Below, piece after piece: positions 21,208 to 29,669 of a stretch of 64,000 nucleotides of DNA; position 1 is the first letter of the stretch; each line of letters opens with the position of its first letter. The stretch covers positions 1,116,001 to 1,180,000 of the forward strand of contig NZ_CP020946.1 in assembly GCF_002208115.1 (NCBI RefSeq). Direction: 5' to 3'. The stretch is from Bdellovibrio bacteriovorus. GTDB lineage: Bacteria > Bdellovibrionota > Bdellovibrionia > Bdellovibrionales > Bdellovibrionaceae. Below the pieces are notes generated by a model. The model searched no databases, was not told the origin of the DNA, and saw only the letters and a list, made by a program, of their open reading frames with translations. The translations under genes were made by a program, and so were the position numbers.

Positions 21208-23097
21208 TTAGCGGCGGTTTTTGCAGCAGTAAGGAACAATCGGCAGCGAACCATCTTGAGTGGTTGCAAAGGTGAATGTTCCTGCGGCCCATGTGTTGCT
21301 TGCTGCCGAGCAGAGAATGACGTGCGCGCTGGAGTTGTCGGTCAGTTGCCCGATCCACAAGCTTGTGTCTGTTGTGATGAAATCGGATTGGCACAAGCCG
21401 ACAGCCTGCTGCAGGTCGCAAAGTTTGGCCCCGGCGTTCAGACACTGAGTCATGGAAGCGGCGAAGTTAGTTCCGGTGCTGGACAGCTTTTGAGCGCAGA
21501 ACGGATCCCCTTTGGTGATCAAAGTCCAGCCGGCATCACAAGGACTTGTTGTCTTCCAGGCAGCCAAAGCAGAGTCGTAGATTAAAGAGCCACCGTCAAA
21601 GTATCCCGCAGATACGTTCACGGGTTTTCCCTGGATTTTAGCTACAGTTGGGTTTGGGTAAGTTCCAGAAAGATCTCCTGCGGCTGTTCCTGCCGGAGAC
21701 CGCGAGTCAGTAAAGCGCGGATCATTTCCGGCAGCCAGAGTGTTGGCTGCAGTTCCGACATTGGCTGTAATTACCGGGGCGGTGCTGCCGCTGGCGACAG
21801 TAATATAGGCATTGGCACTAGTGACCCCACTGATGATATTCACGGTGGTTCCGCCAGCAGAGGTCAAGCGACCTTGAGCATCTACCGTGAAGGAAGGAAT
21901 CTGTGTGGCACTTCCATAGGTTCCGGCGGTCACACTGGTGTTAGCCAAAGAAATGGTGCCGGTGGATGTGATCGTGCCCCCGGTTAGGCCCGTGCCTGCA
22001 GCCACAGAGGTGACCGTGCCAGCTCCTGTCGGGATCGTTGCTGGCACCCAGTCCGTGCCGTTGTAACGAAGGACCTGACCGCTGGTTGGGGTGGTGGCCG
22101 CGACGTTCACTCCGCGCAGGCGGGTGACTTGGGTCGCTGTTGTCGTCCCGGCGACGTCGCCGGCCAAAGGCAAATTGATGGCCTGACAGTCCCAGGTGTC
22201 GCTCACAGAAGTGTAGTGCATGGTCTCGCTGGTCCCGCAAGTGGGCAGAGCCGCCTTATTCAATTTGTTGCTCAGCTCTGCATTCAGATTGCTGACGTCC
22301 GTGATGGCAATCGCCCCGGCTTTCCACTGAGATCCATCGTGCTTCAAAACCTGGCCACTGGCGCCGGTGGGTAAAGTGAAGTTCGTGCCGGTTTGATCCT
22401 GAACGCAGGTCAGGTTTGTTCCATTGGATGTCAGCGTGTATCCCGCAGCACATGTTGGCAGAGCGTTTTTAGCAAAGCCCTGAACCGTTGGATCGGCTTC
22501 GACTTTCAGGAACTGATTATAGTCTGCGACCACCGACAACAAGGCCGACATCTGGGCAGGCGTCATCGCCGGAGCTGTTCCGCCATCGACCCGCAGCAGG
22601 CTTGTGGCATTATAGTTACCCAGCTTGTTTGCTGACTGGGCATTTTGGGATTCCGTCGCAAAAGGAACTGCCTTTAATTTTTGCGCGGCAAAGCTTTGCC
22701 ACGCGCTGCCGTCATAGAAAGAAATACGCAAAGATCTTTCATCTGTGGCCACAGGATTAAAGAGGGCTCCACCTTTACAGGTCAGAGATGCGCTGTTAGA
22801 GACGACCTTTTCCAAAGGCATGTCACCGCTGGAATAAACCCGGGTCCCTGATCCCAGCACCAGATTGAAGCGGCCTTTGGAGCCACTCATGTCAACGTTG
22901 TTGATTGTTTCCTGGTACACCACGCAGGTGGCGTCAGGGGACAGAACCTCAAGATTGAAACTGACAGCATTTGCATCCACGGGAGTGCCGTCGGGACGAA
23001 GAATCTTTCCCGACACATGATAACCATCGGCCTTTGCGACAAAGGCAAACAAAAGCGGGATTATCAACAAAGGATAACGGACGTGCTTTGGTTTCAT
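21208..23097 (-). CDS. Long tail-fibre-like adhesin (mosaic adhesive trimer type), fibre 1
   Basis: A 629-residue secreted fibre. Signal peptide 1-23; N-terminal domain (about 25-150) with GKILRPDGTP, VLSPDATCVVYQE and GRFNLVLGSG shared with fibre 2. Next comes a long stalk with phage-tail-fibre wording: NALPTCAAGYTLTSNGTNLTC, GQVLKHDGSQWKAGAI, GQVLRYNGTDWVPATI, AGTVTSVAAGTGLTGG and DLSGTYPNPTVAKIQGKPV. The C-terminal tip (about 500-629) is rich in cysteine, with CLNAGAKLCDLQQAVGLC and PYCCKNRR, resembling C-type-lectin/FGE-like folds. Bdellovibrio carries a set of such chimeric trimeric fibres (MATs) used in prey recognition; membership is inferred from architecture. Preceded by its lipoprotein gene. 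Confidence 0.75.
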   Translation of the reverse strand: MKPKHVRYPLLIIPLLFAFVAKADGYHVSGKILRPDGTPVDANAVSFNLEVLSPDATCVVYQETINNVDMSGSKGRFNLVLGSGTRVYSSGDMPLEKVVSNSASLTCKGGALFNPVATDERSLRISFYDGSAWQSFAAQKLKAVPFATESQNAQSANKLGNYNATSLLRVDGGTAPAMTPAQMSALLSVVADYNQFLKVEADPTVQGFAKNALPTCAAGYTLTSNGTNLTCVQDQTGTNFTLPTGASGQVLKHDGSQWKAGAIAITDVSNLNAELSNKLNKAALPTCGTSETMHYTSVSDTWDCQAINLPLAGDVAGTTTATQVTRLRGVNVAATTPTSGQVLRYNGTDWVPATIPTGAGTVTSVAAGTGLTGGTITSTGTISLANTSVTAGTYGSATQIPSFTVDAQGRLTSAGGTTVNIISGVTSANAYITVASGSTAPVITANVGTAANTLAAGNDPRFTDSRSPAGTAAGDLSGTYPNPTVAKIQGKPVNVSAGYFDGGSLIYDSALAAWKTTSPCDAGWTLITKGDPFCAQKLSSTGTNFAASMTQCLNAGAKLCDLQQAVGLCQSDFITTDTSLWIGQLTDNSSAHVILCSAASNTWAAGTFTFATTQDGSLPIVPYCCKNRR

Positions 23098-23150
23098 TCA
23101 TGAATATATTCGGAGTTATTCAGACAAATCCTTAGGATTTTGACCGTATT

Positions 23151-23429
23151 TTAGTCGATATCTTCATTAAGAATCAGAAGATAGCCTTGAGATGAGACAA
23201 GCTGGGTGCTTCTGTCTTCTTTCGACACAGTGGCTTCCAGTTTAAAGCCGCCAGCGGAAGTTGAAACGGCATGGCTGGCCAGGTCGGTCTTTATAAATGA
23301 TTCCCCTGCAGGACTGCCCGTGCTCGGGGAGGGGGTCTGTCCTTTTAAAAAGCTGACCTGCGGGGTGACGTCGGAACATCCCGCCAAAAACAGCAACGCA
23401 CTAAAAAGACTTAAAGACAGTTTAAGCAT
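23151..23429 (-). CDS. Small lipoprotein paired with fibre 1
   Basis: A 92-residue lipoprotein, lipobox FLAGC, lipid site Cys18. The 74-residue mature part has a Ser/Pro/Thr linker (QTPSPSTGSPAGES) and a strand-rich C-terminus (GGFKLEATVSKEDRSTQ, GYLLIL). It lies 53 bp upstream of fibre 1 on the same strand. The equivalent gene, 93 residues, overlaps the fibre 2 start at 26953-27234, so a lipoprotein-fibre pair recurs. A chaperone, anchor or plug for the fibre is plausible; no activity is known. Confidence 0.65.
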   Translation of the reverse strand: MLKLSLSLFSALLFLAGCSDVTPQVSFLKGQTPSPSTGSPAGESFIKTDLASHAVSTSAGGFKLEATVSKEDRSTQLVSSQGYLLILNEDID

Positions 23430-23524
23430 TCTTATTACTTATCGGAGGAAAGGAACTGGACTTTAGTGCATTCAGTTTTCGGGCATTTAAACAGATAAGA
23501 CATTGATAAATATGGAAAGAGGAG

Positions 23525-24964
23525 ATGATCGTGCAACGTTCAAGGACATCCTTTTGGTTTTACACATTCTGTTGCCTGGCTTCCTTCACCGCCTTTGGCT
23601 GGTATGAAGTCACTCGTCCAACCGCTGGTGCCGGCGAATATGCCTCCAGTGCTGAAGAGCAGGTGATTAAAAAGCTGCAGACCGTGAACAAATCCCTGAC
23701 GGGAATTGGAACAACAGCGGCTAAAGACGACATGACCTGCACCTGTAATTTCGGCGACGTCGAAAACATGATCACGTTCGAAAAGCCGGAAAACTGCGGC
23801 CCGGACCGCAACTATCTGCAAAAGCAGTTTGAAGCTTTCAAGAAAGCCGATCCGAAAGGGTTGTTCGCCGGTGGTCGTGATTACTCCAAGACCGCGGAAA
23901 TTCTGCCACGTAAGTGTGCTCTTTATATCATGAAACGTTTCTGGAAAGACCGCGCCCTGACGCCGGAAGAAAAGCGCGAGGCGGACATCGAGTTCAACCG
24001 CACGGCTCCACCGACCAATCAGCGTGAAGTCAAGGACGTGAAAGACTACAAAAAAGACCCGTGGTTGTTTGCCAAGTGTGACAAAGACACAGGCACTCCA
24101 GAGCGTTATGGTCACAAGGCCTGCGTGACTGAAAACTATGTGAACCTGGTTTATAATTCGTTGATCGACGTGGCGGACTGTCTGGAAGTTCCGGCGAAAT
24201 TCATCGCGCCAAAACTTTCCAATGAAAGCGGTCTGCATGTGAATGCGTTTGGACTGGTGAATGACGGTGGTATCGGGCAGTTCACGGATCAGGCGTTGGC
24301 GGATGTGGCTCAGAACTTTGAAAACTTCAAGGGCCGTATCAACAACAGCACCAAAGAATCCTGCCAAAGACTGCGCAGCATTCCGGGGGCGGTGCCTGCG
24401 AAAGCCGAAGAAATCCTGTCTGAAGATTCCCAGCGCTGTCATGCAATCTCAACGCCGCCGAATCCTCTAAGAAGTATGGTTTATTATGGTATCTTCTATC
24501 ATGCGACCAAAAGAAATTCGAATGGCGCGTGGAATCGCTCCACGGATGCCAAAAATCCGGATTTCAAAGGTGTTGAGCAGTTGATGAAAGAGGCCGGCAT
24601 TGACAGCTTCGACAAAGAATCCATCAAAGAGATGATCTTTGTTATGGCTTACAATTCGGGTCCGGGTCGTCCGCCAGTGTTTTATCGTGAATGGCTGAAA
24701 TACCGTATCACGACACTGAAAAAGTACCCGATCACGAAAGCAGACTTTGATATGAATTACTGGCCGACAGGGGCGCAGTTGAAAGCCAAGGCCGGCGAAG
24801 CCCGCGCCAAAGCGATTGGCAAAAAGACACCTTTGACGTTGGCTGAATACCTGTTTGCATATAAAGATTCTCTTTATATCCCGGCAGTAAAAGCGCAGGC
24901 GCGCGTATTGGATAAAGCACTAGGAGCAGGCACATGCACAGAAAACAAATTCTTGGAACTGTAA
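23525..24964 (+). CDS. Secreted lytic-transglycosylase-like (SLT/lysozyme-fold) protein
   Basis: A 479-residue protein with an N-terminal membrane/signal segment (about 9-26). The order LSNESGLHVNAFGLVNDGGIGQF (Glu234 as the putative catalytic acid) and, 140 residues later, MAYNSGPG follows the ES-x-N ... GLMQ ... AYN-x-G pattern of SLT enzymes; GLMQ is replaced by GGIGQF. Two CxC and other cysteine pairs (72, 74, 91, 131, 185, 200, 219) suggest a disulfide-braced periplasmic protein, unlike most LTs. The next gene begins inside its 3' end. Ribosome site AAAGAGGAG before ATG 23525. Confidence 0.65.
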   Translation: MIVQRSRTSFWFYTFCCLASFTAFGWYEVTRPTAGAGEYASSAEEQVIKKLQTVNKSLTGIGTTAAKDDMTCTCNFGDVENMITFEKPENCGPDRNYLQKQFEAFKKADPKGLFAGGRDYSKTAEILPRKCALYIMKRFWKDRALTPEEKREADIEFNRTAPPTNQREVKDVKDYKKDPWLFAKCDKDTGTPERYGHKACVTENYVNLVYNSLIDVADCLEVPAKFIAPKLSNESGLHVNAFGLVNDGGIGQFTDQALADVAQNFENFKGRINNSTKESCQRLRSIPGAVPAKAEEILSEDSQRCHAISTPPNPLRSMVYYGIFYHATKRNSNGAWNRSTDAKNPDFKGVEQLMKEAGIDSFDKESIKEMIFVMAYNSGPGRPPVFYREWLKYRITTLKKYPITKADFDMNYWPTGAQLKAKAGEARAKAIGKKTPLTLAEYLFAYKDSLYIPAVKAQARVLDKALGAGTCTENKFLEL

Positions 24965-25353
24965 TTGCGGTACTGATGACCGGTCTTTCTGTGACTGCGG
25001 CGCAAGCGGCCAAAGTGGACGTTTTTGCTGAGTTCAATAAAAAGATCACCAAGCTTGAAGGGGAGTTGAAGAAGGAAAAAGACGTGACCAAGCGTTACGA
25101 CGTGTTCCTGAAAAACTATCGTGAGATGGGTGAACTGAGATCCAAGAATCCCCGTCAGGCGGAAGAAAAAGAAATCAACATGAGTCTTTTCATGGACTCG
25201 TTGGCATTCCTGCCAGAGAAAAAAGACTTCCAGGCGTCCAAATGCAAGGACTATAAAAAGGAAGTGAATGACATGATGAAATCCTATGCAAAGGATCAAA
25301 AAGAGCCCTTTGTTGATAAGGCTTTCAATGTCGTGGACCTGATCTGTAAGTAA
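24934..25353 (+). CDS. Small secreted protein, paralogue A
   Basis: A 139-residue protein with a signal peptide (1-25, AQA then A). The mature part is helical and charged. Its second half (EKEINMSLFMDSLAFLPEKK, DFQASKCKDYKKEVNDMM, VDLICK) matches the downstream gene at 25447-25896: a shared M-x-L-x-M-x-x-L-x-x-LP block, a C-x-x-Y pair and a terminal cysteine. It overlaps the transglycosylase-like gene by 31 bp and probably shares its message. Unknown function. Confidence 0.65.
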   Translation: MHRKQILGTVIAVLMTGLSVTAAQAAKVDVFAEFNKKITKLEGELKKEKDVTKRYDVFLKNYREMGELRSKNPRQAEEKEINMSLFMDSLAFLPEKKDFQASKCKDYKKEVNDMMKSYAKDQKEPFVDKAFNVVDLICK

Positions 25354-25446
25354 GCAGATTAAAAAATCACTTAATATGGTGCCTTCAGCCCTGCTAGAGA
25401 TTGAAAAACATCTCGAATCATAAGATAAAAGGGGCTGGAGGTGAGC

Positions 25447-25896
25447 ATGAAAACGATCTGGGTCTTGTCAGCAGTATTGGTCTGCAGTCTGGACGTTCAT
25501 GCCATTATCCCACCGGAAGGGCTGGGGGCCGGAGAAGTTGCCATTCGCAGCAATCGCAGTGTGCGACAGCAGGTGGAATCCTACACCGAGATGCTGGAAA
25601 AAGAAGTCGGTAAAGCCAAGAACAACAAAGAACGCTATCGCGCCATGAATCGTATCGTGAGTCAGATACGCTCTCTGCGTGACAATAGCGTTCCCCAGGG
25701 GGCGCAGGACGAGGCACACATGGATCTGATGGTGTCCGTTCTGGAATCCCTTCCGTCCGAAAAGAACTTCAAGAAAAAAGACTGCGCCAAATACGAAAAC
25801 GATTTGATCAATCAGTATGAGCCCACTGCCGAAGACACTCCGACAGAACCCGCAGTTCAGCCGGGTTGGAAGGTGTTAGAATCTTTGTGTCAGTAA
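25447..25896 (+). CDS. Small secreted protein, paralogue B
   Basis: A 149-residue protein, signal peptide 1-17 (VHA then I). The frame opens at a GTG at 25441, but GGAGG ends exactly there, so ATG 25447 is the start. The C-terminal half is the paralogue of the gene at 24934: AHMDLMVSVLESLPSEKNF, then CAKYENDLINQY and a final ESLCQ. Both proteins keep two cysteines in the same positions, probably a disulfide. Tandem duplication is the simplest origin. Six bases separate its stop from the next start. Confidence 0.65.
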   Translation: MKTIWVLSAVLVCSLDVHAIIPPEGLGAGEVAIRSNRSVRQQVESYTEMLEKEVGKAKNNKERYRAMNRIVSQIRSLRDNSVPQGAQDEAHMDLMVSVLESLPSEKNFKKKDCAKYENDLINQYEPTAEDTPTEPAVQPGWKVLESLCQ

Positions 25897-25901
25897 GCGC
25901 T

Positions 25902-26900
25902 ATGTTTAAAACGCTGGGTATTTTGATTCTTTTCTCGGCTTCGGTGGCGTGGTCTGAAGCCAAATGGGACTCTGCGGGTGCCGACGAAGTGAAAGTCACT
26001 CTGGGGCCTCAGGTTTCCTCTTATCAAATCGACATTCAATCGCCAAATGACGGACCTGAAGCGCAGTTTATGCCGAATGTGGGCAGCAAAACTTATCTGG
26101 GAGTCAGTTACAGAAATTTGGGAGCTTCCATTGGCCTTAGCAATCCGGTGGATCCCTCCACCGTCGAACAAAAAGGCGAAAGCTCTGCTACGGATTTTCA
26201 CCTGCGCTTTTACGGGAAGCGCACCTATGAATTCAGCTATCAATCTTATAAGGGCTATTATCTCGACAACACCGAAGCTATTAACGCCGGTTCGGCCCCG
26301 GTCGGGATCAAGTATCAGCGCAGTGATATCAGCACCCGCAATATCAGTTTCGTGATGCACTGGAATCTGCGTGAAGACGATTACAGCCTGGGTGTGGCCT
26401 TCGGTCAGGACGGACATCAGAAAGAAAGTGGCTGGTCGTATTTTGCCAGTGCGATGATTTCTGACAACAAGATGACGGGTGATTCACCTTTTATTCCTGC
26501 GGGGACTTCGGGGTTTGACAGGCTGGCCGACCTGCAGGAACTGGATCGTCAAATGGCGGGCTTGGGTGGAGCTGTCGGGGGCATCTGGGTTCGCGGACCA
26601 TGGTATATGACGGGCTTTGCGGCATTGGGCGTGGCCTGGCAGAAGGTCTATGGAAAGTTTGCGACATCTGCCAATCTGGATGAAAGTTTCGTGGGCTATT
26701 TTTCAGATGCGAAAGTCGGCGGAGGCTACAACGGCGAACGCCACGTTGTGGATTTGCAGTTGCACTCTGATAACACGACGACGGACTTTCTGGGAGGGAC
26801 GGTGGATGCCATACAAATGGAGATGCGTCTGACGTACTCTTACCGCTTCCAAAATGTGGACCTGCCTGGGTTGAATTCTCTTTCGTCGTTCCTTGATTAA
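25902..26900 (+). CDS. Outer-membrane beta-barrel protein (DUF4421-like)
   Basis: A 332-residue protein with a short signal peptide (about 1-18). The frame extends upstream, but ATG 25902 directly follows the previous stop. Alternating strands run through the whole protein: KVTLGPQVSSYQI, TYLGVSYRNLGASIGL, FHLRFYGKRTYEFSYQSYKG, FVMHWNLREDDYSLGVAF, MEMRLTYSYRFQNV. The pattern YLGVSYRNLGASIGLS recalls DUF4421 barrels; this is a resemblance only. Its place between the two fibre cassettes suggests an envelope role in the same set. Confidence 0.6.
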   Translation: MFKTLGILILFSASVAWSEAKWDSAGADEVKVTLGPQVSSYQIDIQSPNDGPEAQFMPNVGSKTYLGVSYRNLGASIGLSNPVDPSTVEQKGESSATDFHLRFYGKRTYEFSYQSYKGYYLDNTEAINAGSAPVGIKYQRSDISTRNISFVMHWNLREDDYSLGVAFGQDGHQKESGWSYFASAMISDNKMTGDSPFIPAGTSGFDRLADLQELDRQMAGLGGAVGGIWVRGPWYMTGFAALGVAWQKVYGKFATSANLDESFVGYFSDAKVGGGYNGERHVVDLQLHSDNTTTDFLGGTVDAIQMEMRLTYSYRFQNVDLPGLNSLSSFLD

Positions 26901-26952
26901 TTCAACGTAATCCTGTTGAGTCACGCTCTGGAAAATCCGATAGATTTTCTAA

Positions 26953-27234
26953 ATGCGCGTTATTGTAAAATCTTGTCTCATCTTGATACTGTGGAGTCTT
27001 CTGTCGGGTTGCTCGATGGAAGCGTCTATAGTTTCGCTGGAGGAGTCGCCAGTTCCTCTGCGTTCTGTTTCTGGCAAGATGGCTATTTCTCCCTCTCGAC
27101 AAATCAGCGCTCAGGATGAATCCGGTCAATACCGGGTGGAAGGCGTGGTGGGTGAAATCACCACGACGGACAAGTCCTATTCCGATGATGGAGTCTATCA
27201 GGCAGAAATCAACATACGCTTTCAAGCCATGTGA
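26953..27234 (+). CDS. Small lipoprotein paired with fibre 2
   Basis: A 93-residue lipoprotein, lipobox LLSGC, lipid site Cys20. The mature part has strand-rich GQYRVEGVVGEITTTDKS and YQAEINIRFQAM. In length, layout and neighbourhood it mirrors the fibre 1 lipoprotein. Its stop (TGA at 27232-27234) lies 8 bp before the fibre 2 ATG. The two lipoproteins share little residue identity; the shared layout is the main evidence that they do the same job. Confidence 0.65.
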   Translation: MRVIVKSCLILILWSLLSGCSMEASIVSLEESPVPLRSVSGKMAISPSRQISAQDESGQYRVEGVVGEITTTDKSYSDDGVYQAEINIRFQAM

Positions 27235-27242
27235 GGAACGTT

Positions 27243-29669
27243 ATGGTGAAACAGATTCTGGCGGTTCTGGTGTTCAGTGTCCCTGTCACAACGGCTTGGG
27301 CCAGTGGGCCCAAGGGTATTCAAATATCCGGGCGTATTCTGGATGTGGCTTCGGAGTTGCCTCTGAGTGAAGGCAGTGTGGATTTCACCGTCAAAGTTCT
27401 AAGCCCTGACAACTGTCTTTTGTATCAAGAGCAACATCTGAACAAGGATCTTTCGGCTTCGGATGGCAGCTTTTCCCTGACAATTGGTTCAGGAAGTTCG
27501 CCAGTGAATGTCTATGCGACGGCCGGACAAGAACAAACACGTGAAAACATCCTGAAGGTTTTTTCCAATGACTCAGCCGTCGCCAGCGGGCTGACGTCAC
27601 AGGACCAGGGATCCGAGTCCACAGTTTGTTCCGGTTCTTACACTCCCGCTGCTGGTGACATTCGTAAAGTGAAGATCGTATTTGACACGGGCACAGGCGG
27701 CCCTCGCGCCATCTTGCCTTATCATCAGATCGGCACTGTTCCTTACGCCATGGTGGCACAAGAGGCGGCCAAGGCTCGTGATGCCGACAAGCTCGGGGGA
27801 GTCGCGGCAGCAAGTTACGCAAAACTCACGGATCTGGCGACCATTCAGGCCTTTGCAAAATCCGCGCTGCCGACTTGTGCCGCGGGTGAAGTGTTGAAAT
27901 CCAATGGAACCAGTTTTTCTTGTGTGACCGATACGGGCGGAGTGGTGTCAGTTGCAACCGCGGCTAGCACCGGGGTTGTGCAAGTGGGTTCGGGTTTGTC
28001 CGTGAATGGAGCTGGCGTTCTTAGTGTCGGCAGTCTGCCGATTTCCCAGATTACCGGCCTGCAGACGGCGCTGGATGATCGTCTGCAAATGAGTCTTTTG
28101 CAGCAGTGTACAAGCAGTCAGGTTTCAATATGGAATTCAGTTTCGGATACTTTTACCTGCTCCAATATCAGCGTTACGGCCAGTCAGATGTCTGACTTTA
28201 ACACTGCAGTGGATGCTCGAGTCAGCGCGGCCGACACCGCCAATCCAAAATTGCCTTTGAGCGGCGGTACGATGACGGGCGATCTGAATATGGGTGGCGA
28301 AGACATTTTGGCCATCGGCCACATCACCATGAGTGCCACAAAAACTTTGTTGCTGGGGAACTTCACGCAAGCCCAGGAAGATGCGCTGGTGCTGAACGCA
28401 GGTCACAAAGGCCTTTCCTGGTACAATTCAGATTTGAAGGCGTTAAGATACTATGATGGGGCGGCAAAGCTGACGGTGGCCGCCAGCACTTCAGCCTGCA
28501 CTGATGGGCAGATTTTAAAATGGAATAACACCGCGAAAACCTGGGATTGCTCGGCCGATTCCAGCGGGACGACGCCGGGAGATGCCTCCTACGCCGCAAA
28601 AGGTCTTGTGCGTTTTGATACCAGCGCGGATGTCTCGGGGATGACGGTGGCTTCTGGATTGGCCAGCGTGAACACAGGGACCGGCGCAAACCAGATTGTG
28701 AAGCTGGGGTCGGACTCAAAGTTGCCGGCTGTGGATGGTTCTGCTTTGACGAACATCAACGCCAGCAATATCGCGACAGGGACCGTGGGCACTTCCGTGT
28801 TGCCGACCATACCAGTCACGAAGGGCGGTACAGGTTTGACAGCGGGAGCTTCTGGCGGGATTCCCTATTTTAGTTCTAATACAACCATAGCATCGACCGC
28901 AGCGGGAACGGCCAATCAGGTTTTGCGTGTGCCGGCAGGTGGTGGCGCGCCAGCATTCGGCGCCATTGATTTGGCTTCTGCGGATGTTGTGGGAACTTCA
29001 GTTTTATCAATTGCAAACGGCGGTACGGGGGCTGCGACGGCGGCCAATGCCCGCACAGCTTTGGGGTTGGGAACTGCGGCTGTGGCGACAACGGGGAGTG
29101 CTTCAGGCAATGTCCCGGTCTTGGGTGTGGGCGGAATAACAGCGAATAAGATGTGTACTTCAGATGGTACCGGAACTGGCATTATCTGTAACGTGAACAT
29201 CCCGGGGACAAGCACCCTGATGGGGTCTTTGACTATGCTGGGAAAGGCGGGGTGCGTGTGGGAACATGCCAATACTTCGTATGCCTCTTTTTCGAATGTG
29301 ACAGCATGTAACACGGCCACGGTGACGGGACTGGCTTCGGCTCCAACGGAAGGCAAGATTCCGGGCATTCGTTTCGCAAATCTTCCCGCGGGAGATTATG
29401 AGCTGACGGTATTACTTTTTTCGATGTATCCAGTGGATGCCGGGGTTTACTGTCGTTATCGTCTTTGGGATGGCACAAACTTCTCGGGCACGGCAGGGGC
29501 CTATCAAAGTGAAATCTATCAAATGACCGGGTTGTTCTCTTATGCCACGGACCAGACGAATTTGACCTTTTATGTTCAGACGCAGACGACGACGGCCACG
29601 AAAAACTGCCGTGCCGACATTTCGGTGCCTGGACAGGATAAGATGCAAATCTATTTGAAGAAGTTATAG
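27243..29669 (+). CDS. Long tail-fibre-like adhesin (mosaic adhesive trimer type), fibre 2
   Basis: An 808-residue secreted fibre. Signal peptide about 1-19; the frame opens at GTG 27231 but ATG 27243 follows GAGGA. N-terminal domain homologous to fibre 1 (GRILDVASELPLSEGSV, VKVLSPDNCLLYQEQH, GSFSLTIGSGSS). The stalk holds SALPTCAAGEVLKSNGTSFSC, nearly identical to fibre 1, DILAIGHITMSATKTLLLGN, GQILKWNNTAKTWDCS, GTVGTSVLPTIPVTKGGTGL and ANGGTGAATAANARTALGLG repeats typical of trimeric tail fibres. The tip (about 675-808) is a different, beta-sandwich-like domain with WEHANTSYASFSNV and YRLWDGTNFSG. Last gene of the run, followed by a bidirectional terminator. Confidence 0.8.
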   Translation: MVKQILAVLVFSVPVTTAWASGPKGIQISGRILDVASELPLSEGSVDFTVKVLSPDNCLLYQEQHLNKDLSASDGSFSLTIGSGSSPVNVYATAGQEQTRENILKVFSNDSAVASGLTSQDQGSESTVCSGSYTPAAGDIRKVKIVFDTGTGGPRAILPYHQIGTVPYAMVAQEAAKARDADKLGGVAAASYAKLTDLATIQAFAKSALPTCAAGEVLKSNGTSFSCVTDTGGVVSVATAASTGVVQVGSGLSVNGAGVLSVGSLPISQITGLQTALDDRLQMSLLQQCTSSQVSIWNSVSDTFTCSNISVTASQMSDFNTAVDARVSAADTANPKLPLSGGTMTGDLNMGGEDILAIGHITMSATKTLLLGNFTQAQEDALVLNAGHKGLSWYNSDLKALRYYDGAAKLTVAASTSACTDGQILKWNNTAKTWDCSADSSGTTPGDASYAAKGLVRFDTSADVSGMTVASGLASVNTGTGANQIVKLGSDSKLPAVDGSALTNINASNIATGTVGTSVLPTIPVTKGGTGLTAGASGGIPYFSSNTTIASTAAGTANQVLRVPAGGGAPAFGAIDLASADVVGTSVLSIANGGTGAATAANARTALGLGTAAVATTGSASGNVPVLGVGGITANKMCTSDGTGTGIICNVNIPGTSTLMGSLTMLGKAGCVWEHANTSYASFSNVTACNTATVTGLASAPTEGKIPGIRFANLPAGDYELTVLLFSMYPVDAGVYCRYRLWDGTNFSGTAGAYQSEIYQMTGLFSYATDQTNLTFYVQTQTTTATKNCRADISVPGQDKMQIYLKKL

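Follow-up and report, generated by a model that had tools for sequence, protein, structure and literature searches.

The window is a stretch of 64,000 nucleotides from Bdellovibrio bacteriovorus, whose genome consists of one contig of 3.77 Mb. It carries two genes for mosaic adhesive trimer (MAT) fibres, each preceded by a small lipoprotein gene. The features and their positions in the window are as follows:

21208..23097, minus strand: MAT fibre of 629 aa with a C-type-lectin tip, orthologue of HD100 Bd2740
22588..23028, minus strand: MAT N-domain of the 629-aa fibre, non-canonical class B
23151..23429, minus strand: MAT-associated lipoprotein of 92 aa (lipobox LAGC, Ser at +2), before the 629-aa fibre
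23214..23288, minus strand: beta-hairpin region, residues 48-72 of the 92-aa lipoprotein, predicted from alignment A6 and the class B model
26953..27234, plus strand: MAT-associated lipoprotein of 93 aa (lipobox LSGC, Ser at +2), before the 808-aa fibre
27243..29669, plus strand (ATG at 27243): MAT fibre of 808 aa with a TNF-like tip, orthologue of HD100 Bd2734
27303..27827, plus strand: MAT N-domain of the 808-aa fibre, non-canonical class C

Four further genes, all on the plus strand, lie between the two cassettes. The first (23525-24964) encodes a 479-aa secreted protein in which motifs resembling those of lytic transglycosylases were recognized by eye (LSNESGLHVNAFG..GGIGQFT, AYNSGPG). This protein gave no match above the cut-off in Pfam or NCBIfam. 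The next two (24934-25353 and 25447-25896) encode small secreted proteins that seem to be paralogues (KNFKKKDC / KDFQASKC region). The fourth (25902-26900) encodes a DUF4421 protein (Pfam E 2.4e-20), which lies beside the Bd2734-type cassette here and in relative G002.

Both window fibres are known MAT proteins, as members of the published fibre family (PMC10769870, NF053851). The 629-aa fibre scored 165.7 bits (E 7e-49) and the 808-aa fibre 138.4 bits (E 2e-40) against NF053851 (Bdello_MAT_N, NCBIfam), for which the curated cut-off is 60 bits. Each has the beta-rich N-domain of about 130 aa behind a signal peptide that marks MAT membership. Residues 517-629 of the shorter fibre match PDB 8oks (E 4.6e-48), and residues 656-808 of the longer one match PDB 8okw (E 5.9e-95). 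The initial annotation had described two fibres with a common N-domain, LPTCAAG stalk words and unrelated tips. This description was borne out, as the N-domains are homologous, the stalk word 'ALPTCAAG' is found in both, and the tips are different (8OKS versus 8OKW). The genes of Bd2740 (627 aa) and Bd2734 (843 aa) lie near each other and are expressed similarly, and both proteins were shown to be trimeric fibres on the surface of the HD100 predator (Caulton et al. 2024, PMC10769870). The orthology is clear because the lengths, the tips and the published nearby loci agree. The genome of the window has 18 MAT N-domains and 13 S74 domains altogether.

The small lipoproteins of 92 and 93 aa that had been claimed before the two fibres were confirmed by their open reading frames, translations and coordinates, on the minus and plus strands, respectively. 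Both have a signal peptide and a lipobox of the form [LVI]-x-[GA]-C (LAGC and LSGC). The 92-aa lipoprotein gene is separated from the 629-aa fibre gene by 53 nt. The 93-aa lipoprotein gene stops 8 nt before the ATG of the 808-aa fibre gene, and an in-frame GTG located 12 nt before this ATG overlaps the lipoprotein stop codon. Therefore, translation of this fibre is probably coupled to that of its lipoprotein. Among 54 cognate pairs, the gap between lipoprotein stop and fibre start ranged from -20 to 162 nt with a median of 2, where the fibre starts are approximate since gene calling clips signal peptides.

Homologues of the 92-aa lipoprotein were found in 8 Bdellovibrio genomes, each upstream of a class B MAT, and homologues of the 93-aa lipoprotein sit upstream of class C MATs. 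Profile A3, built from 20 mature lipoproteins, recovered both window lipoproteins. The members have a common layout, with a lipobox and a C-terminal strand motif, S-G-x-Y-x-V-x-x-x-V, that occurs twice. The lipobox-type Cys recurs across the family, and Ser is found at +2 in 38/46 readable pairs. Searches of Pfam, NCBIfam and PDB sequences returned no known family above the cut-off. From their sequences, we propose that the MAT-associated lipoproteins are a previously undescribed family. The pairing had been called undescribed before, and we likewise found no description of it in the papers searched, a set outside which subscription papers, preprints and supplements lay. The main text of Caulton et al. 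2024 (PMC10769870) mentions neither lipoproteins nor operons.

The linkage was also read in the reverse direction, in which lipoproteins were found from sequence similarity alone and their neighbouring genes were read afterwards. Profile A3 gave 30 matches in ten genomes, and 25 of them adjoin a MAT gene, compared with about 0.7 expected (an order of magnitude only, which treats matches as independent and allots about 6 kb to each MAT gene). When the lipoprotein sequences themselves were searched in relatives, even the weak matches L043, L046 and L050 (E 0.02-0.5) proved to have a gene encoding a MAT N-domain immediately behind them. A profile scan across the whole bacterial family found matches in 48/66 genomes and 14/20 genera. 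Of a further 40 matches, 26 are directly upstream of a MAT gene (16/30 in other genera and 10/10 in Bdellovibrio). Family members standing alone were seen at L231, L240, L242-L245, L249, L251-L254, L256 and L257. None of the 66 genomes had the lipoprotein without a MAT (48 had both, 13 a MAT only, and 5 neither). The linkage of the family to MAT genes is far above chance.

In the genome of the window, a lipoprotein is located directly upstream of 4/18 MAT genes. These are the two window fibres, a 989-aa MAT at 696 kb, whose 188-aa lipoprotein gene has a 4-nt overlap, and an 1847-aa MAT at 3091 kb. For a fifth MAT, at 994 kb, a lipoprotein with this layout is encoded on the opposite strand at a distance of about 0.9 kb. 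The sixth family lipoprotein, at 609.76-609.99 kb, is directly 3' of a canonical MAT cluster. Thus, all family lipoproteins seen in this genome (6/6) sit near a MAT gene.

We compared 103 MAT N-domains, mostly from ten genomes, in which a supported group (98) of 65 was taken as canonical. An adjacent lipoprotein was found for 29/38 non-canonical and 2/65 canonical N-domains (Fisher p 2e-15); the remaining 9/38 non-canonical MATs had none adjacent. The lipobox filter of this forward count missed some cases, and these were added by hand. As background, a small lipoprotein precedes 4% (18/453) of the remaining genes in these regions, and in 6 of the 18 cases it belongs to the MAT-associated family. 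When the lipoprotein label was placed on the N-domain tree, it required 9 changes compared with 26.8 in shuffles. Each non-canonical class has its own lipoprotein type (Bd2740-like, Bd2734-like, 188-aa, short, and divergent 208-aa). The initial annotation had proposed a dedicated lipoprotein partner for the fibres. For the non-canonical classes this proposal is supported by linkage, co-divergence and structure models, but as a general rule it fails with the canonical MATs (2/65). The refuting condition named in the initial annotation, fibre genes elsewhere without an upstream lipoprotein, turns against the general claim, since most MATs are at background, and leaves the class-specific one standing. 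A pairing of all fibres with a lipoprotein was rejected because canonical MATs are at the background rate.

The tip was also considered as the partner of the lipoprotein. The class D S74 tip of L088, in the genome of the window, is 69% identical to the tip of canonical L098, which has no lipoprotein. Class E tips share up to 53% identity with the tip of L174, likewise without a lipoprotein. Since the same tips occur both with and without a lipoprotein, the tip was rejected as its partner. Therefore, the lipoprotein follows the N-domain and not the tip.

Two other arrangements were observed. Class F MATs (L090, L146, L161, L188, L202) have a divergent lipoprotein of 208-212 aa about 0.9 kb away, whose middle domain was judged Ig-like by eye, and, in L090, L188 and L202 at least, MAT and lipoprotein are separated by a 200-aa Cys-rich gene. 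In genus g13 (L194:3912-9000, plus strand), two tandem MAT genes follow one family lipoprotein, a possible common partner within the operon.

In genus g3, the profile search gave no match in two genomes rich in MATs, and in one of these we read 15 MAT loci by position. Immediately before two divergent MATs, L300 and L304, there is a lipoprotein gene with the family layout, which overlaps or touches the start of the fibre gene. The L300 lipoprotein carries the C-terminal repeat of the family, 'TLSNGWQV...TLSNGWNVEVKYE'. The main-class MATs among the loci read have no lipoprotein, and neither does a third divergent MAT, L302, which sits behind another fibre gene. Since the L300 and L304 lipoproteins were found by position alone, the class rule recurs where the similarity search had given no match.

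A different arrangement was found for canonical MATs. Within the Bdellovibrio genus, a canonical-type lipoprotein is present in 20/21 genomes with canonical MATs and in 0/3 genomes without them (Fisher p 0.002). It usually lies beside a MAT cluster, followed in most loci read by a conserved 'VDVRRNITL' gene. This secreted gene ('VDVRRNITL..YKDFYI') is seen at L087:8968-9606 on the minus strand, and also in L184, L193, L200 and L206; it has no Pfam family. These observations suggest that canonical MATs may use one common lipoprotein encoded once per genome. Relative G018 contradicts this, so the rule is not strict: it has canonical MATs, but its expected site is without the common lipoprotein and the search found no other copy in that genome. 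In its canonical MAT cluster (L152), a 352-aa gene with an HNH-like end occupies the expected site.

We then compared the divergence of the lipoproteins with that of the N-domains. Distances between lipoprotein C-termini correlate with distances between the cognate N-domains, with a rho of 0.64 overall (54 cognate pairs, 26 genomes). Within-genome comparisons (n=46) gave a rho of 0.72 (permutation p 0.004).

AlphaFold models were made as single chains with lipoprotein and MAT in one frame and the stop codons read as Gly (natural read-through). In model 1 (L262), the N-domain has a pLDDT of mostly 83-96 and the lipoprotein strand 64-72 of about 80, the linker is about 50, and the first half of the lipoprotein is disordered. 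In model 2 (L031, a Bd2740-type orthologue of class B), the lipoprotein strands 28-38 and 44-53 reach 90-96, the N-domain 89-98, and the linker is <50. These values are pLDDT only and come from tethered monomers, in which the tether can favour an N-terminal strand. According to alignment A6, residues 48-72 of the 92-aa window lipoprotein are equivalent to the strands of the class B model.

The fold matches of both models are single solved beta-sandwich domains (Ig-like and others) with Z <8, values that may reflect merely a common arrangement. They begin at residue 58-64 in model 1 and at about 28-44 in model 2 and end at about 235, so that each match starts inside the lipoprotein strands. Thus, those strands would replace the first strand or strands of the sandwich. 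The inserted part of the lipoprotein differs between the models: it is strand 64-72 in model 1 and strands 28-53 in model 2. Overall, the models support, but do not prove, that lipoprotein strands complete the Ig-like sandwich of the MAT N-domain by strand complementation. A fold search of the class B model against viral structures gave no match with E <0.001. No Fim/Mfa proteins are among the best fold matches listed, although such a list excludes nothing. We also considered that the lipoprotein hairpin is homologous to the first hairpin of the N-domain, as a forced MAFFT alignment had it; hhalign gave a probability of 0.3, and this homology was not supported.

We propose that the lipoprotein is an outer-membrane anchor that holds the base of the MAT fibre through strand complementation, and we regard this as reasonably probable. 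After export, the lipoprotein would presumably receive its lipid at the Cys and stay in the outer membrane. A flexible spacer would follow the lipobox, in some classes with an added domain that looks Ig-like by eye. The C-terminal strand motif would then bind the cognate N-domain physically, adding one or more strands to its open Ig-like sandwich, so that the fibre base would be held on the outer membrane of the predator with the variable tip toward the prey. Non-canonical N-domains would each use their own lipoprotein, encoded in the same operon and nearly always translated just before the fibre, and the numerous canonical MATs would share the common one. Going further, each N-domain class may be matched to its own strand-donating lipoprotein, the common class sharing one and the rest having private ones. 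Such a sorting code is conceivable, and we put it forward tentatively.

Among the roles of anchor, chaperone and inhibitor, the anchor fits best, and sequence alone does not separate them. The lipoprotein could be a periplasmic escort or chaperone that covers the incomplete N-domain while the fibre is exported or the trimer assembles, much as pilus chaperones work by donor-strand complementation, and then lets go without holding the mature fibre. The position of its gene before the fibre and the tight translational linkage agree with such a role, the strands added in the models are as compatible with a chaperone as with an anchor, and MAT proteins have a signal peptide with no export system known. 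However, a soluble escort needs neither a lipid anchor nor a long disordered spacer, and the divergence of the strand pair tracks that of the N-domain, which is what a lasting partner would show. We consider a chaperone role, the main rival to the anchor, rather unlikely.

We think it still less probable that the lipoprotein is only co-transcribed with the fibre and acts elsewhere on the envelope during predation, making no contact with the fibre. Some family members do stand alone, and none is beside canonical MATs. But the near-exclusive linkage to MAT genes across many genera, which switches with the N-domain class, argues against it, as do the co-divergence and the finding of 0/66 genomes with a lipoprotein but no MAT.

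Finally, it is hardly credible that the block 21208-29669, with its lytic-transglycosylase-like gene and its small secreted genes, forms a single functional island. Its gene order recurs in G002, the closest relative, and G006 also has the two cassettes near each other. But the Bd2734-type cassette of G007 and G018 is at an unrelated site >1 Mb away, the Bd2740-type cassette of G007 has retained its neighbours as far as lpdA in the absence of the other cassette, and G013 has a cassette and no transglycosylase-like gene. G018 and G013 have largely retained the Bd2740-type neighbours as well. In the G007 gene list, lpdA comes straight after the small secreted gene, no second cassette intervenes, and the DUF4421 gene was not found in this version of the locus. 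The suggestion in the initial annotation that the genes between the cassettes act with the fibres is thus contradicted by the synteny in relatives. The block reflects cassettes that lie side by side locally, in close relatives, and the genes separating them do not belong to the system.

MAT fibres form the principal repertoire known to serve prey recognition in Bdellovibrio. Caulton et al. 2024 (PMC10769870) postulated a surface element bound by the invariant MAT N-domain and left it unidentified. The published account of the MAT fibres (PMC10769870) contains neither the lipoprotein family nor its pairing by class, nor a possible role of the family as this element. The family offers a testable hypothesis for what holds the MAT N-domain to the predator, and its class-wise structure points to candidate partners for individual genes in HD100 and relatives. 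If the anchor proposal is true, losing a private lipoprotein should take one fibre off the surface, and losing the common one should remove many at once. Loss of the common lipoprotein would thereby offer a way past the redundancy that has masked single-fibre phenotypes. A sorting code, if true, would be an adhesin-anchoring principle new to description.

The proposed anchor can be compared with two known systems. In chaperone-usher pili, an incomplete Ig-like domain is completed by a strand of a partner protein. There the donor is an Ig-like chaperone, whereas in the MAT proposal the short hairpin of a lipoprotein would donate the strand, and neither an usher nor a polymer was seen. Bacteroidales type V (Fim/Mfa) pili have a lipoprotein anchor subunit at the base of the fibre and strand donation between subunits. 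These pili are made of polymerised lipidated pilins, whereas MAT fibres are single trimeric chains. Their likeness to the proposed MAT anchor lies in a lipoprotein that holds the base of a surface fibre.
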